39,226 bases of DNA from Candidatus Zixiibacteriota bacterium. GTDB lineage: Bacteria; Zixibacteria; MSB-5A5; WJJR01. Both the position numbers and the translations under genes were made by a program. Below the pieces are notes generated by a model. That model was not told the DNA's origin. It was given only the letters and a program-made list of their open reading frames with translations, and searched no databases. This document shows, piece by piece, positions 3,156 through 28,113 of the stretch. Position 1 is the first letter of the stretch. Each line of letters opens with the position of its first letter. Where the stretch lies: assembly GCA_040752595.1 (NCBI GenBank), contig JBFMGX010000048.1, forward strand, positions 1 through 39,226. Reading direction: 5' to 3'.

Positions 3156-3227
3156 GTGCCACGGGACTTCAGACCCGTGATTTCCCGAAATACACGTATC
3201 GAGCACGAATCCAAAGACCCGTGGCAC
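3156..3227. repeat. Palindrome unit bounded by GTGCCAC and GTGGCAC
   Basis: The unit opens with GTGCCAC (3156-3162) running into a small hairpin (CACGGG at 3160-3165 with CCCGTG at 3174-3179). After a spacer of about 40 nt it closes with AAAGACCCGTGGCAC, ending at 3227. The two outer ends are inverted copies of each other. The same CACGGGTC core recurs at 21649-21672 and 28098-28113. Confidence 0.7.
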
Positions 3228-8062: not shown

Positions 8063-8828
8063 GGATATACCTCCTGGCAACACATTCTTGCGAGGCATGG
8101 GAGCATTCTCCCTCCGGACCGGAACGTGCTCCCACGATGGGAGCCCCGGCACATCTTGCCGGCGCCTTTTGGGAGCAGACTCTCTTTTTACAAAATACTA
8201 TCAGCCCTGTATCTCGGCAAGAGGAAAGCGGCTCCGAGACCAAGAGCGTCAAACAGAATGAGATGTTCAACGTGCGATTTGGCTTCGGCATGTGCCAAGC
8301 ACCGGCAACAACCCCTCACCCCTTCGACTTCCCTCGACTTCGCTCTGGACAAGTCGCTCAGGGCAAACCTGCCCCCTCCCCAGAGGGGAGAGGGAAGTCT
8401 AACCTCTCCCCCCGGCTTGCCCCGAGCTGAGTCGAGGGGGAGAGGTCGATCCCTGCCTGCCGGCAGGCACGGCGCCGCAGGCGGATCGGGTGAGGGAATC
8501 GTCTTCTTGGCTCATTGTGTTAGAGGCTCTAACAGGTTGCTGAAGAACCATCCAACGCTGTCATTCTGAACCCCGCCGCTCTTCGGCGGGGTGAAGAATC
8601 TGCTGTCTCTCATAGGGTGGGGAAAGCAGATGCTTCGCTTCGCAGTCTGGCACGGTTGTCCCTTCCTCAGCCAGAGGGCAGCGGGATGCGCGATGAAGTC
8701 ACGCGGTCGCCGTTCCAGGCCCGGCTGGGGTCGAATACGAGAATGGCTGTCACAATCTCTCCCCCACCGATTGCCCGCCCGCGAACAGCTACGTAGATAT
8801 CACGGGGCGCAGCCCGGAAAGGACTCCC
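8063..8828. other. 766-bp spacer with dispersed repeats
   Basis: No gene is supported. It holds the upstream region of the minus-strand giant gene (8063-8240), a repeat copy at about 8245-8400 that also occurs inverted at 10476-10612, further CCCTCACC/CTCTCCC-type repeat DNA to about 8500, and a hairpin CCCCGCCG/CGGCGGGG (8571-8591) flanked by CATTCTGAA and GTGAAGAATCTG. The last 60 nt lead into the radical SAM gene. Confidence 0.6.
8245..8400 (-). repeat. Dispersed repeat element, copy 1 (inverted relative to copy at 10476)
   Basis: Read on the minus strand, this stretch runs from GGGGAGG through TGCCCTGAGCGACTTGTCC, GAGCGAAGTCGAGGGAA and GAGGGGTTGT to CTCATTCTGTTTGACGCTCTT. The plus strand at 10476-10612 has the same blocks in the same order with scattered differences. 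Similarity extends over roughly 140-150 nt, so this is a true repeat copy and not just a shared hairpin. Confidence 0.7.
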
Positions 8829-10387: not shown

Positions 10388-10817
10388 CACAATGGAATGG
10401 AGCTGTCCAAGACCCTCACCCCAGCCCTCTCCCTGGAAGGGAGAGGGGGATTGGATTCTTCCCCTTTCCCCTATGGGGAGCGGGTAGGCTTGCCCTGAGC
10501 GACTTGTCCCGAGCGAAGTCGAGGGAAACCGAAGGAATGAGGGGTTGTCACCGGCGCATCACACATGCTAAAGCCACAGCGCACCTTGAGTTTCTCATTC
10601 TGTTGGACGCTCTTAAGAACTTCTAACACAAAGAGAATCGTAATCGATCCCGTTGATAGGCGAGGAAGGGTGATACGATATCCGACATGTCCGATTCCCC
10701 GATCGGCCTATCGGCGGATCGACCCCTCTCGGGGGGGAGAGGCTACTCTTCCCCCTCTCTGCGCGGGAGAGGATCGGGATCCGGGATCAGCCGGATAAGT
10801 CATAGGGCGCAATCTGA
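10388..10817. other. 430-bp spacer with repeats
   Basis: No gene is supported. The first 90 nt hold CCCTCACCCCAGCCC and CTCTCCC arms, then repeat copy 2 (10476-10612). After 10620 comes AT-richer sequence and a second run of GGGGGGAGAGG/CCCCTCTC arms (about 10726-10775), then the leader of the dehydratase gene. Confidence 0.55.
10476..10612 (+). repeat. Dispersed repeat element, copy 2
   Basis: Shares block order with the minus strand of 8245-8400: CTTGCCCTGAGCGACTTGT, CCGAGCGAAGTCGAGGGAA, GAGGGGTTGT, then a terminal CTCATTCTGTTGGACGCTCTT-like end. The two copies are about 2.1 kb apart in opposite orientation and bracket the radical SAM, small membrane and Smr genes. Confidence 0.7.
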
Positions 10818-11360: not shown

Positions 11361-11792
11361 CTACTCGCCGAGCAGGTTCTCGAGTTCGTCGACGGCGCGC
11401 ATCTCATCCATCATGATGTGCATCAGGTCGTGCTTGATGACCGGATGGTCGCCGACCAGGGGAAGCGCCTTCTGGTATTGCTGTGCCGCGGCAGTCTCGG
11501 TCTTGAGCGCCTCGGCGAGCATGTCACGGACACCGGCGGTGTGCACGATCGGTGTCGCATCACGGTTGGTCACTGCCTGTCCGCCCAACAGGGCGATGAT
11601 CTCCCGCACTTTGGCGGCGTGGCCGAATGACTCCTTGGCCTCTTCCTCAAAGTGCGACTTCAGTTGAACGGCCGAGAGGCCGCCGACATAGACGGAATAG
11701 TGCGCGTACATCGCTTCGGCCCGCAACTCCCAGCCGAGCGCCTTGTTCAGCTCGCTTACGAGCTTCTTCTTGTCTTTGACTTTACCAAACAT
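11361..11792 (-). CDS. Ferritin-like protein with altered diiron site
   Basis: A 143-residue four-helix protein of the bacterioferritin/ferritin-like superfamily. Aligned by eye with bacterioferritin, the metal positions E18, E51, H54, E94, E127 and H130 correspond to E22, S55, H58, E99, E130 and A133. One glutamate and one histidine are thus missing, though E54 sits next to S55. The haem-ligand Met52 position is F56. Either the ferroxidase site is rebuilt from other residues (His121 and His125 are near) or the protein is non-catalytic. The start is firm (AAGGAG 7 nt upstream). It is transcribed alone, facing the dehydratase gene. 'Iron storage' should not be assumed. Confidence 0.75.
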   Translation of the reverse strand: MFGKVKDKKKLVSELNKALGWELRAEAMYAHYSVYVGGLSAVQLKSHFEEEAKESFGHAAKVREIIALLGGQAVTNRDATPIVHTAGVRDMLAEALKTETAAAQQYQKALPLVGDHPVIKHDLMHIMMDEMRAVDELENLLGE

Positions 11793-12086
11793 GGTCTCTC
11801 CTTCGCGTGTCGGGTTACAACAGTCTGATTCACATCGGTCTGGTCAAATTCGCATTATACGAACCGAGAAGTCAACTGTTTGTGTCCGGTTTATGGGATC
11901 AGGGGGCGAAAGCCCCTTGTTGGCCATGCTGTGATCTGGCCCACGCGGCGAGGTCTCCGCGCTCGCCGAAGTAGGCGATCCTTGTGATCGCCCACGTTTC
12001 GTCCCACACGCCCCCCTGTCATCCCGGGCGGAGTCCTGTCCCACCGACAGGACGGAGAGAGGGCCGCTGTTTTCTGTTTACTGCGG

Positions 12087-12208
12087 GTGCCACTCGTGGT
12101 GAACTCGTGGTGAACCATGCACAAGCATCCTGACGTGCAATGTCAGGATGCTTGTGCGTGCATCTCATCCCCAAACAGGACACGCACAAACAGGTTTGTG
12201 CGTGGCAC
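12087..12208. repeat. Palindrome unit U1 with two different hairpins
   Basis: Opens with GTGCCAC (12087-12093) and closes with GTGGCAC (12202-12208). Inside are two strong hairpins: a perfect 15-bp stem CACAAGCATCCTGAC/GTCAGGATGCTTGTG (12120-12134 with 12142-12156, loop 7), and a perfect 10-bp stem CACGCACAAA/TTTGTGCGTG (12181-12190 with 12195-12204, loop 4). Confidence 0.75.
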
Positions 12209-12232
12209 CCGGACGCCGCGCCGCGACGACTT

Positions 12233-12293
12233 GTGCCACTGACCTTGGTCAGTGACAACTGTGACAAGAACCACTGACCGAGGTCAGTGGCAC
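12233..12293. repeat. Palindrome unit U2 (paired CACTGACC palindromes)
   Basis: GTGCCAC at 12233-12239 runs into CACTGACCTTGGTCAGTG (12237-12254). A 16-nt spacer follows, then CCACTGACCGAGGTCAGTGG (12271-12290), running into GTGGCAC ending at 12293. The ends are inverted copies of one another. Confidence 0.8.
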
Positions 12294-12314
12294 ACAGGCA
12301 CTCGGTGCTCCGGC

Positions 12315-12416
12315 CTACGGGCATTCCCGCGGCAGCGGCGGCGGAGTCTCGCAAGGTCCGCAGAACTCCGTCGCCGGATCGGCCCCGCGGAATGCCACGT
12401 TCACCATCTTCACGGC
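12315..12416 (-). pseudogene. 3' fragment of a dockerin-like gene
   Basis: The minus-strand frame ending at the TAG at 12315-12317 reads AVKMVNVAFRGADPATEFC followed by GPC and a Pro-rich tail. The intact protein at 101-631 ends VVKVVNVAFRGASKATEFC, then DPC. The match covers about 20 residues with few changes. Upstream of it the reading frame runs straight into palindrome unit U3, so the 5' part is gone. The nucleotide match (for example ATGCCACGTTCACCATCTTCA against the intact gene's equivalent) is also close. This is a decayed paralogue or a fragment carried in with the flanking palindromes. Confidence 0.75.
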
Positions 12417-12418
12417 GG

Positions 12419-12471
12419 GTGGCACTGACCGTGGTCAGTGATGCGGACCCACTGACCGAGGTCAGTGGCAC
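12419..12471. repeat. Palindrome unit U3 (paired CACTGACC palindromes)
   Basis: CACTGACCGTGGTCAGTG (12423-12440), an 8-nt spacer, then CCACTGACCGAGGTCAGTGG (12449-12468) running into GTGGCAC ending at 12471. The left edge also reads GTGGCAC (12419-12425), so here the outer 7-mers are direct rather than inverted. It abuts the broken end of the dockerin fragment. Confidence 0.8.
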
Positions 12472-12484
12472 GTGCAGCCGGCGT

Positions 12485-12504
12485 CAAGGGGCTGAAGCCC
12501 CTTG
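12485..12504. repeat. CAAGGGGCT hairpin, family copy
   Basis: CAAGGGGCT-GA-AGCCCCTTG followed by TCCTC. Relatives occur at 11900, 19256, 22249 and 25662. Three of the five share the downstream flank TGTCCTC. Confidence 0.75.
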
Positions 12505-12617
12505 TCCTCATGGGATGGGGCGGGATTGCCTCTGCGGAGGCGGCGGAGTTTGTGTATACTACCGGATGTGAGTGAGGAGACCGCCGTATGAGAGTCGTCG
12601 GGTAGCCTGTGCGTACG

Positions 12618-14132
12618 ATGTCCGATCCGAAAAAGATCCGTCTGCCGCACTTTGCGGAGAAGGACGGATTCTATACGAATGACCCGGTGGCGCTGACCAA
12701 GCAGATTGCCCAGTTCTTTGCCGCGGCCAAGCGACACACCGATATCCGTCAGGAGGGGATTGCCGCGCTGGTCTGTCCGCACGCGGGGTATGTCTACTCC
12801 GGTGCGGTGGCGGCGGAGGGATACAAGCAACTGGAGGGTCTGTCATTCGACACGGTGGTCGTGATCGCGCCGTCGCACCGGGCGTTCTTTCGCGGGGGTT
12901 CGGTCTATTCCGGCGGCGCCTATCGCACGCCGCTGGGTGATGTCCCCCTCGATCTCGATTTCTGCGAGCGTTTGACATCGGTTGATCCGTCGGTGGCACT
13001 GGCGGATATCGGCCATGATGCGACCGGGGGCGGTTATGAACACGCGCTCGAAGTCCATCTGCCGTTCCTGCAGATTGTTCTCGGGAGTTTTGCTTTGGTC
13101 CCGGTGGTGATGGGGGATCAGGAGTTCACCACGGCGCGGACATTGGGCGAACTGATCGCCCGGCATGCGCGCTTGGGACGCACATTGGTGGTCGCCTCCT
13201 CCGATCTGGCACACGGTCATGACTATCCAACCACGCAACGGCTGGATGACACGGCGGCCGCCGCGATTGAGCGGTATTCGTCGGGCGATCTCTATGATCA
13301 GTTCTCCTCGGGGGCGTTCGAGGCCTGCGGCGGCGGACCGATCACCGCCGCGATGATCGCCGCACAGGGGATGGGCGCCGACACCGCCACCGTGGTCTGC
13401 AAACGCAATTCCGCCGATGTGACCGGATCGAGGCGGGGATACATCGTCGGGTATCTGTCAGCGGTGTTTCACCGCGCAGGGGGGGACAATCCGGACCGTG
13501 CACACGCTCAAAGGCGCTCAGCCTCCAGTGTCCATGATGATCACGCGAGCACGGCCAGTGGTCCGCGCGCAACCAGGGGAACCCTGGTGTCCGATGAAAC
13601 TCTCGATCCGCACGAGCGAGAGCTGTTGCGGACCACGGCTCGCCGCTCGCTGGAGCGCGCGGTCAAAGGCGCGCGTCTCGAATGTCCCGAGGCGCCGACC
13701 ACGCGTCTGCGCGAGAAACGCGGCGTCTTCGTCACGCTCAAGCGCGATGGGCACCTGCGCGGCTGCATCGGATATGTCCGCCCGTACAAGCCCTTGATCG
13801 AGGCAGTCTGGGAGATGGCCGAATCGGCCGCCTTGCGCGATCACCGCTTCCTCCCGGTCGAGCCATCGGAAGTGGACGATCTCGAAATCGAAATCACGGT
13901 CTTATCGCCGCTGCAGAAGGTCGATTCGCCCGATGATGTTCTGGTCGGGCGTCATGGATTGATCATCGCACGCGGTCACCGCGCGGGAGTGCTGCTGCCA
14001 CAGGTGCCCATCGAGCAGGACTGGGATCGGGAGATGTTTCTCTCGCAGACATGCCTGAAGGCGGGGCTCGATCCCGATGCCTGGAAGGAGCCGGGCACGG
14101 TGATCGAAGTGTTCACGGCGGAGGTGTTCTGA
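12618..14132 (+). CDS. Memo-AMMECR1 fusion protein (AmmeMemoRadiSam proteins B and A in one chain)
   Basis: A 504-residue fusion. Residues about 1-275 are a Memo domain, a class III extradiol dioxygenase-like fold: CPHAGYVYSG, APSHRAFFRG, GYEHALEVHLPFLQ and ASSDLAHGHDY are all present, as is the FEACGGGPI cysteine. In human MEMO1 the equivalent His, His and Cys bind metal. Residues about 310-504 are an AMMECR1 domain with the signature LRGCIGY. The two are normally separate or fused partners of a radical SAM enzyme (AmrS). AmrS is not adjacent here. Cellular role unknown. The ATG at 12618 is preferred to an in-frame GTG at 12609; neither has a strong ribosome-binding site. The linker between domains (about 280-310) is low-complexity and polar. 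Confidence 0.85.
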   Translation: MSDPKKIRLPHFAEKDGFYTNDPVALTKQIAQFFAAAKRHTDIRQEGIAALVCPHAGYVYSGAVAAEGYKQLEGLSFDTVVVIAPSHRAFFRGGSVYSGGAYRTPLGDVPLDLDFCERLTSVDPSVALADIGHDATGGGYEHALEVHLPFLQIVLGSFALVPVVMGDQEFTTARTLGELIARHARLGRTLVVASSDLAHGHDYPTTQRLDDTAAAAIERYSSGDLYDQFSSGAFEACGGGPITAAMIAAQGMGADTATVVCKRNSADVTGSRRGYIVGYLSAVFHRAGGDNPDRAHAQRRSASSVHDDHASTASGPRATRGTLVSDETLDPHERELLRTTARRSLERAVKGARLECPEAPTTRLREKRGVFVTLKRDGHLRGCIGYVRPYKPLIEAVWEMAESAALRDHRFLPVEPSEVDDLEIEITVLSPLQKVDSPDDVLVGRHGLIIARGHRAGVLLPQVPIEQDWDREMFLSQTCLKAGLDPDAWKEPGTVIEVFTAEVF

Positions 14133-18231: not shown

Positions 18232-18370
18232 CCTCACCCGCCCGCCTGCGGCGGGCGACCTCTCCCGGAGGGAGGGGTTATCAACACCCGACTGTAGGTC
18301 AGGAGCCCTGCTTGCAGCGAACGAAGTCGAGCTGCGCTCCTGACATGAGTTCCGCGATCGGAGATCGCGG
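18232..18370. repeat. Repeat cluster between convergent genes
   Basis: Contains CCCGCCTGCGGCGGGCGACC, then CTCTCCCGGAGGGAGG, an inverted pair GTCAGGAGC/GCTCCTGAC (about 18298-18343), and CCGCGATC-GGA-GATCGCGG (18352-18370). It fills the gap between the anti-sigma gene and the convergent barrel gene. Confidence 0.55.
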
Positions 18371-18383
18371 GCACGCGAAGGTG

Positions 18384-19255: not shown

Positions 19256-19276
19256 CAGGGGGCTGAAAGCCCCCTG
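19256..19276. repeat. CAGGGGGCT hairpin, family copy
   Basis: CAGGGGGCT-GAA-AGCCCCCTG followed by TCCTCGA. It lies 29 nt past the stop of the minus-strand DUF4234 gene, so it may also act as its terminator stem. Confidence 0.7.
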
Positions 19277-19305
19277 TCCTCGATGCCGGGTGGTGGGACC
19301 GGATC

Positions 19306-21648: not shown

Positions 21649-21672
21649 GTGCCACGGGTCTTCAGACCCGTG
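21649..21672. repeat. GTGCCAC palindrome half-unit
   Basis: GTGCCAC runs into CACGGGTC-TTCA-GACCCGTG (21653-21672). It has the same core as the unit at 3156-3227 but no closing GTGGCAC nearby. Confidence 0.7.
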
Positions 21673-22248: not shown

Positions 22249-22274
22249 AAACAAGGGGCTTCAGCCCCTTGTTT
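22249..22274. repeat. AAACAAGGGGCT hairpin
   Basis: An inverted repeat of 12 bp with a TC centre, the longest member of the CAAGGGGCT family. It lies between the dodecin start and the end of the minus-strand thioredoxin-domain gene. Read on the minus strand it is followed by TTTACCC, so it may end that transcript. Confidence 0.7.
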
Positions 22275-25618: not shown

Positions 25619-25661
25619 CTTCCGGCGTGTGCTCGGGCGGAGCCGGGCCGCGCCGATCCTC

Positions 25662-25682
25662 AAGGGGCTGAAAGCCCCTTGT
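25662..25682. repeat. CAAGGGGCT hairpin after the tadA unit
   Basis: CAAGGGGCT-GAA-AGCCCCTTG followed by TCCTCGA, 43 nt past the last stop. Same family and same flank as the copies at 12485 and 19256. It may end tadA-unit transcription. Confidence 0.7.
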
Positions 25683-28043: not shown

Positions 28044-28097
28044 GGTGTCCGGCGGGGAGCCTCTTGGGCCGCACAGGGGTGCTTTTTCAACATGCCC

Positions 28098-28113
28098 TGA
28101 AGACCCGTGGCAC
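28098..28113. repeat. GTGGCAC palindrome half-unit
   Basis: TGAAGACCCGTGGCAC is the right half of the unit seen at 3156-3227 and complements the left half at 21649. The left half is missing here. Confidence 0.6.

Follow-up and report, generated by a model that had tools for sequence, protein, structure and literature searches.

The four paired-hairpin units described here are very probably REPINs, that is inverted pairs of REPs, which belong to three families, each of them served now or formerly by its own RAYT encoded elsewhere. We hold this reading because of the anatomy of the units, their copy number, a rule of orientation, the presence of RAYTs flanked by the same tag and hairpin, and the parallel change of REPs and RAYTs between genera. 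Judged from the sequences, RAYTs of the same or of related genomes most likely copy these non-coding repeats around. The analysed stretch of 39,226 nucleotides (“the window”) comes from contig C48 of the genome G000 of Candidatus Zixiibacteriota, a draft of 2.94 Mb in 50 contigs.

An earlier note had described the units as pairs of hairpins with interchangeable cores between the fixed ends GTGCCAC and GTGGCAC, and its coordinates (12087-12208, 12233-12293, 12419-12471 and 3156-3227, here units 1 to 4) were borne out in the sequence. The idea of a fixed end holds; its extent of seven nucleotides does not. What is conserved is a tag of 4 nt, GTGC, at the hairpin foot, and the adjoining CAC represents the first three stem bases common to the families. 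The ends are fixed and the cores variable because several REP families have the tag GTGC in common. The variable cores are three REP families: CACGGGTC (unit 4 and a REP at 21649), CACTGACC (the core recognized earlier as common to two units, units 2 and 3) and CACGCACAA (unit 1). If the two 7-mers are counted as such, they occur 15 times in the window compared to 7.4 expected occurrences, and 2 out of 100 shuffles were equally high.

Unit 2 (12233-12293) consists of two CACTGACC REPs, 12233-12254 on the plus strand and 12272-12293 on the minus strand, with the GTGC tags outward; strands are given for the single hairpins, as none is assigned to the paired units. In unit 3 (12419-12471) the CACTGACC REPs lie at 12419-12440 (+, tag GTGG) and 12450-12471 (−, tag GTGC). 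The deviating start GTGGCAC pointed out earlier for this unit corresponds to the GTGG tag, a variant found elsewhere in that family. Unit 4 (3156-3227), a REPIN of the CACGGGTC family, is partly decayed and has its REPs at 3156-3179 (+) and 3204-3227 (−). Two supposed halves of this family at 21649 and 28098 differ from each other: the former is a complete single REP (21649-21672, +), whereas the latter, at approximately 28096-28113 (−), is indeed a broken half (GTGCCACGGGTCTTCAGG) that has lost its second stem arm and lies at the start of an ORF. A further single REP with the tag GTGC belongs to the CCGCGATC family (18352-18374, −), and its core is identical to that of the REPs that accompany the RAYT of contig C18.

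Unit 1 (12087-12208), a REPIN of the CACGCACAA family, had been thought to hold two unrelated stems. They are actually the long and the short arm of a single family that has more copies in the genome, and they correspond to the two arms of a REPtron that lacks the RAYT gene. The long-arm hairpin (CATGCACAAG...CTTGTGCGTG, 12115-12161, +) has a variable tip, and its GTGC at 12087-12090 is displaced by a stretch inserted at 12091-12114. Since this CACTCGTGGTGAAC-type stretch separates the leading GTGC from the hairpin, the GTGCCAC of unit 1 is partly coincidental. The short-arm REP, GTGC-CACGCACAAACCTGTTTGTGCGTG (12181-12208, −), gave 13 pattern matches in the genome, 8 of them perfect, and partial or whole copies of the unit occur elsewhere, e.g. 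at C15:48469 with 89% identity. Throughout the family a short arm (CACGCACAAACnnGTTTGTGCGTG) is combined with a long one, whose tip varies between the copies yet pairs with itself: 6.7 out of 8 outer positions pair within a copy, compared to 4.4 if the arms of different copies are combined. The stretch at 12091-12114, CACTCGTGGTGAACTCGTGGTGAACC, is also present at REP-free places (L162, L167, L168, L172, L175), and one of these copies adjoins an integrase-like reading frame on C28.

To keep the ends from biasing the result the genome was searched with the stems alone. The CACGGGTC hairpin was found at 51 places and the CACTGACC hairpin at 36, with 0 places in the reversed-pattern controls. In the fetched stretches GTGC occurs on exactly one side in 54 out of 57 CACGGGTC hairpins (27 left, 27 right, none on both sides), and the three untagged hairpins are all degenerate. 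Among the 54 tagged copies, 51 have TTCA or TTTA as the loop, in one orientation relative to the tag. Beyond the tag the sequence is near random. As a possible cleavage-site signal neither a GA nor a GC dinucleotide is fixed beside the tags, and T before the tag alone is weakly favored (57-60% of the copies).

All 15 pairs of tagged CACGGGTC neighbours within 100 nt carry their tags outward, mostly with a spacing of 40-47 nt. Tag plus hairpin, arranged in pairs with the tags outward, is the anatomy of REPINs (PMC3116915). Single REPs account for 24 of the 54 tagged copies, which is expected for remnants and compatible with other origins also; as is usual in mobile DNA, many copies are remnants or broken. 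In the CACTGACC relatives CCCTGACC, tagged GTGG, and CACGGACC, tagged GTGC, the stem bases have changed in pairs. Within a CACTGACC REP cluster (G000:C4:306407-306621) two hairpins, at C4:306555 and C4:306600, carry a tag on both sides, similar to the double-foot REPs of subclass 2.4 (PMC6006769), a form that is rare here. Folded as single-stranded DNA, all four units were better than all 200 shuffles (z −5.6 to −7.7).

The genome possesses seven Y1_Tnp genes, none of them in the window, as stated before. All seven proteins match REP_Tyr_transpos (NCBIfam), six of them above the curated cut-off, and all keep the HUH motif and the Tyr; the protein from contig C27 matches the E. coli TnpAREP structure 4er8 (E 3.6e-6). 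The check proposed in the earlier note, whether a RAYT has the same ends at its flanks, was run and such a gene exists: the RAYT at C27:7512-8027 lies between GTGC-CACGGGTC REPs with the core of unit 4. The suspected likeness to BIME-type REP doublets and their RAYTs gains support from the seven genes and from this matching pair. Each of the seven RAYTs has a hairpin family of its own nearby. An automatic comparison of the flanks found the same GTxx tag and hairpin close on both sides in three of them (L021, L022, L024), and L025 has them on both sides as well, but at a larger distance. The sister REP GTGG-CCCTGACC stands on either side of the C3 RAYT, and CCGCGATC REPs lie beside the RAYT on C18. 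The probable cognate RAYT of CACGGGTC is present in the genome itself (C27), and that of CACGCACAA is known from relatives only. A RAYT exactly matching CACTGACC or CACGCACAA was not found in this 50-contig assembly; the nearest candidates for CACTGACC are the C3 RAYT and a RAYT of genus g2.

The comparison with relatives points to REPs and RAYTs changing together. A RAYT of genus g3 that is 54% identical to the C27 RAYT has GTGC-CACGGGCC on both sides, and the stem differs by a compensatory change, GGGTC/GACCC in G000 and GGGCC/GGCCC in g2 and g3; in genus g2, which belongs to the same family, the GGGCC/GGCCC version is the only one. The REP pattern of G000 has 46 matches in its own genome compared to 1 and 3 in two genomes of the same genus, whose nearest RAYTs are 37% and 48% identical. 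The g2 candidate for CACTGACC, in genome G003, has GTGC-CACTGACC just upstream and on one side only, as the contig ends before the other side. A RAYT flanked by GGGCC REPs was not seen in this fragmented assembly despite 26 GGGCC REP matches. The REPtron matching both ends of unit 1 is intact in two relatives (G005, G006), where a short arm (CACGGACAAAC) and a long one (CACGGACAAAG) enclose the RAYT, i.e. the layout of unit 1 plus the gene. Related CACGGACAA REPs flank RAYTs in both genomes.

Units 1-3 lie upstream of a Memo/AMMECR1 gene. In G005 (C16, L157) a CCGCGATC REPtron is found directly upstream of the same gene, and this region may attract such repeats. The Memo/AMMECR1 locus of five relatives has a different upstream region; at this locus the same-genus relatives are about 73-74% identical in DNA, and the neighbouring gene is not shared. 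When the joined flanks of one REPIN were searched for an unoccupied site, nothing was recovered but the flanks of that REPIN itself and weak partial arms. C29 and C32 carry identical REPINs, which we did not count as a case of movement: C32 starts inside the shared stretch, and the identity may reflect assembly.

Strong hairpins within intergenic DNA could also be intrinsic terminators, attenuators or mRNA-stabilising hairpins that are selected for a function in the RNA and are unrelated to transposition. Within the window, none of the four units overlaps a recognised gene. However, the cluster 12087-12471 is bordered by divergently transcribed genes, a Dps/ferritin-like gene (11361-11792, −) and Memo/AMMECR1 (12609-14132, +), so that no transcript needs an end there, which is an argument against terminators. 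The hairpins are followed by GCAC or by non-conserved bases and not by a T run, Rfam scans gave tRNAs as the sole matches, and the same tag and hairpin flank transposase genes. We therefore regard an origin as RNA signals as very unlikely. A side role of the hairpins in transcription or RNA stability is possible; it leaves the link to the RAYTs unexplained.

Short elements with inverted ends in multiple copies might likewise be taken for MITEs of a DDE transposase with GTGCCAC as terminal inverted repeats. This is exceedingly improbable given that each half is itself palindromic with one tag, that singles exist, that an intact Y1 RAYT bears the same ends, and that no duplicated target bases are visible by eye in the flanks. 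Protein-binding or nucleoid-structuring sites, comparable to the E. coli BIMEs that serve several host proteins and with a copy number kept by host selection and not by mobility, could be envisaged in view of passages in PMC2817692 that report binding of host proteins to known REPs and BIMEs. The strong difference in copy number among genomes of one genus, the different cores between genera and the abundance of remnants and broken copies leave very little probability for this origin.

If the units are REPINs moved by RAYTs, the enzyme (TnpAREP, an HUH single-tyrosine enzyme) would bind the folded single strand, read the tag and the stem, and nick the DNA next to the tag. The unit would then be moved in trans, probably during replication, and end in intergenic DNA. 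This outline, and the nicking and the movement in trans in particular, is drawn from what is known biochemically about TnpAREP and IS608-type enzymes, where the REP tag is thought to guide the choice of the cleavage site and laboratory mutants of the tag mostly lose activity or shift the site (PMC8266576).

The REPINs and RAYTs of Pseudomonas fluorescens SBW25 (Bertels and Rainey 2011, PMC3116915) are organized alike, with inverted doublets and a spacer, singlets as remnants, and several groups per genome, each beside its own RAYT. In contrast, the tag here is GTGC and not GTAG or GTGG, there are tens of copies and not hundreds, and the phylum is Candidatus Zixiibacteriota. TnpAREP REPtrons of group 3 and of the subclasses 2.5 and 2.7 (PMC8266576, PMC6006769) also have short palindromes, a tag at the foot and RAYTs in which HUH and Tyr are accompanied by a D where E. 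coli has E100, a likeness by features which implies no formal subclass; their tags are GT[AG]G, whereas here many tags are GTGC and all members of a clade of 38 have N as residue 102. The GTAG- and CGTC-tagged super-families (2013, PMC3733652) likewise comprise short tagged palindromes and dimers, but GTGC is not among the tags described. It is the tag of all 54 tagged CACGGGTC REPs and of 21 out of 30 CACTGACC-type REPs, the other 9 having GTGG, which sets them apart from the GTAG super-family (GTAG or GT[AG]G). The REPs of the window do not carry CGTC, and REPs here have dedicated RAYTs, which the CGTC repeats do not. In the main text of the REP literature searched, many subscription papers being outside this scope, the tags are GTAG, GTGG, CGTC and CnGA, and GTGC does not appear.

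New is a clade of RAYTs with GTGC or GTGG tags, present in Candidatus Zixiibacteriota and in further genomes of the same class, with GTAG neighbours that keep an E. coli-like tag-reading segment. In a tree of 56 RAYTs from G000 and related genomes, with tags called without prior choice when common to both sides, a clade of 38 RAYTs (support 99/95) has GTGC at 10 loci, GTGG at 6 and GTAG at none. A separate clade of six has GTAG at 3 loci and neither GTGC nor GTGG. The segment of the E. coli RAYT with tag-contacting residues is known (PMC6006769). N occupies the position of E. coli A102 in 38 of the 38 members of the large clade; the GTAG clade keeps the segment as W-x-x-R-F-W-[DE]-H, followed by another residue. 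Among 40 further loci GTAG was found in all seven with an E. coli-like segment and a callable tag, and three with the N gave no callable tag. A Fisher test of tag against segment gives 2e-7, in which related genes are treated as independent and very few independent changes underlie the contrast. Outside both clades the picture is mixed, as L025 (GTGC) and L020 (GTGG) are without the N. Within the clade of 38, GTGG is the usual tag where residue 101 is R and GTGC where it is another residue, the exceptions being the one-sided case in G003 and L098. The RAYT L093 has its own flanking hairpins tagged GTGG and a REPIN tagged GTGC nearby.

As a tentative and rather doubtful proposal, this clade could have re-coded the guide tetranucleotide from GTAG to GTG[C/G], with N at the A102 position accompanying a G as the third tag base, and residue 101 (R vs Q, E, S or H) tending to go with G vs C as the fourth. 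If true, the re-coded tag would provide RAYTs with a natural code of specificity, for recognition as well as for the choice of the cleavage site, and the guide-pairing model would predict that the cleavage dinucleotide shifts from CT to GA or GC in the case of GTGC. Natural GTGC and GTGG RAYTs, whose tag-reading segment is altered, open the guide model to direct tests. They also add a little-studied phylum with several RAYTs per genome, many beside their own hairpin family.

We further report other repeats. Several CACGGGTC REPINs of G000 lie mid-way in a larger inverted repeat, GGTTTCATAAC...GTTATGAAACCC, at C14:63971, C4:178669, C5:93720 and C50:14111 (L065, L038, L045, L076), for which no Rfam match and no unoccupied copy was found. 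A further hairpin family, CAAGGGGC...GCCCCTTG, occurs in the window at 11900-11919, 12485-12504, 19256-19283, 22252-22271 and 25661-25681, and also on both sides of C49:56883 (L019), the most diverged RAYT-like gene of the genome. An inverted repeat of 153 nt (8242-8394 and 10462-10614, 84% complementary) represents a separate family (GACTTGTCCCGAGCGAAGTCGAGGG) with more copies in the window.
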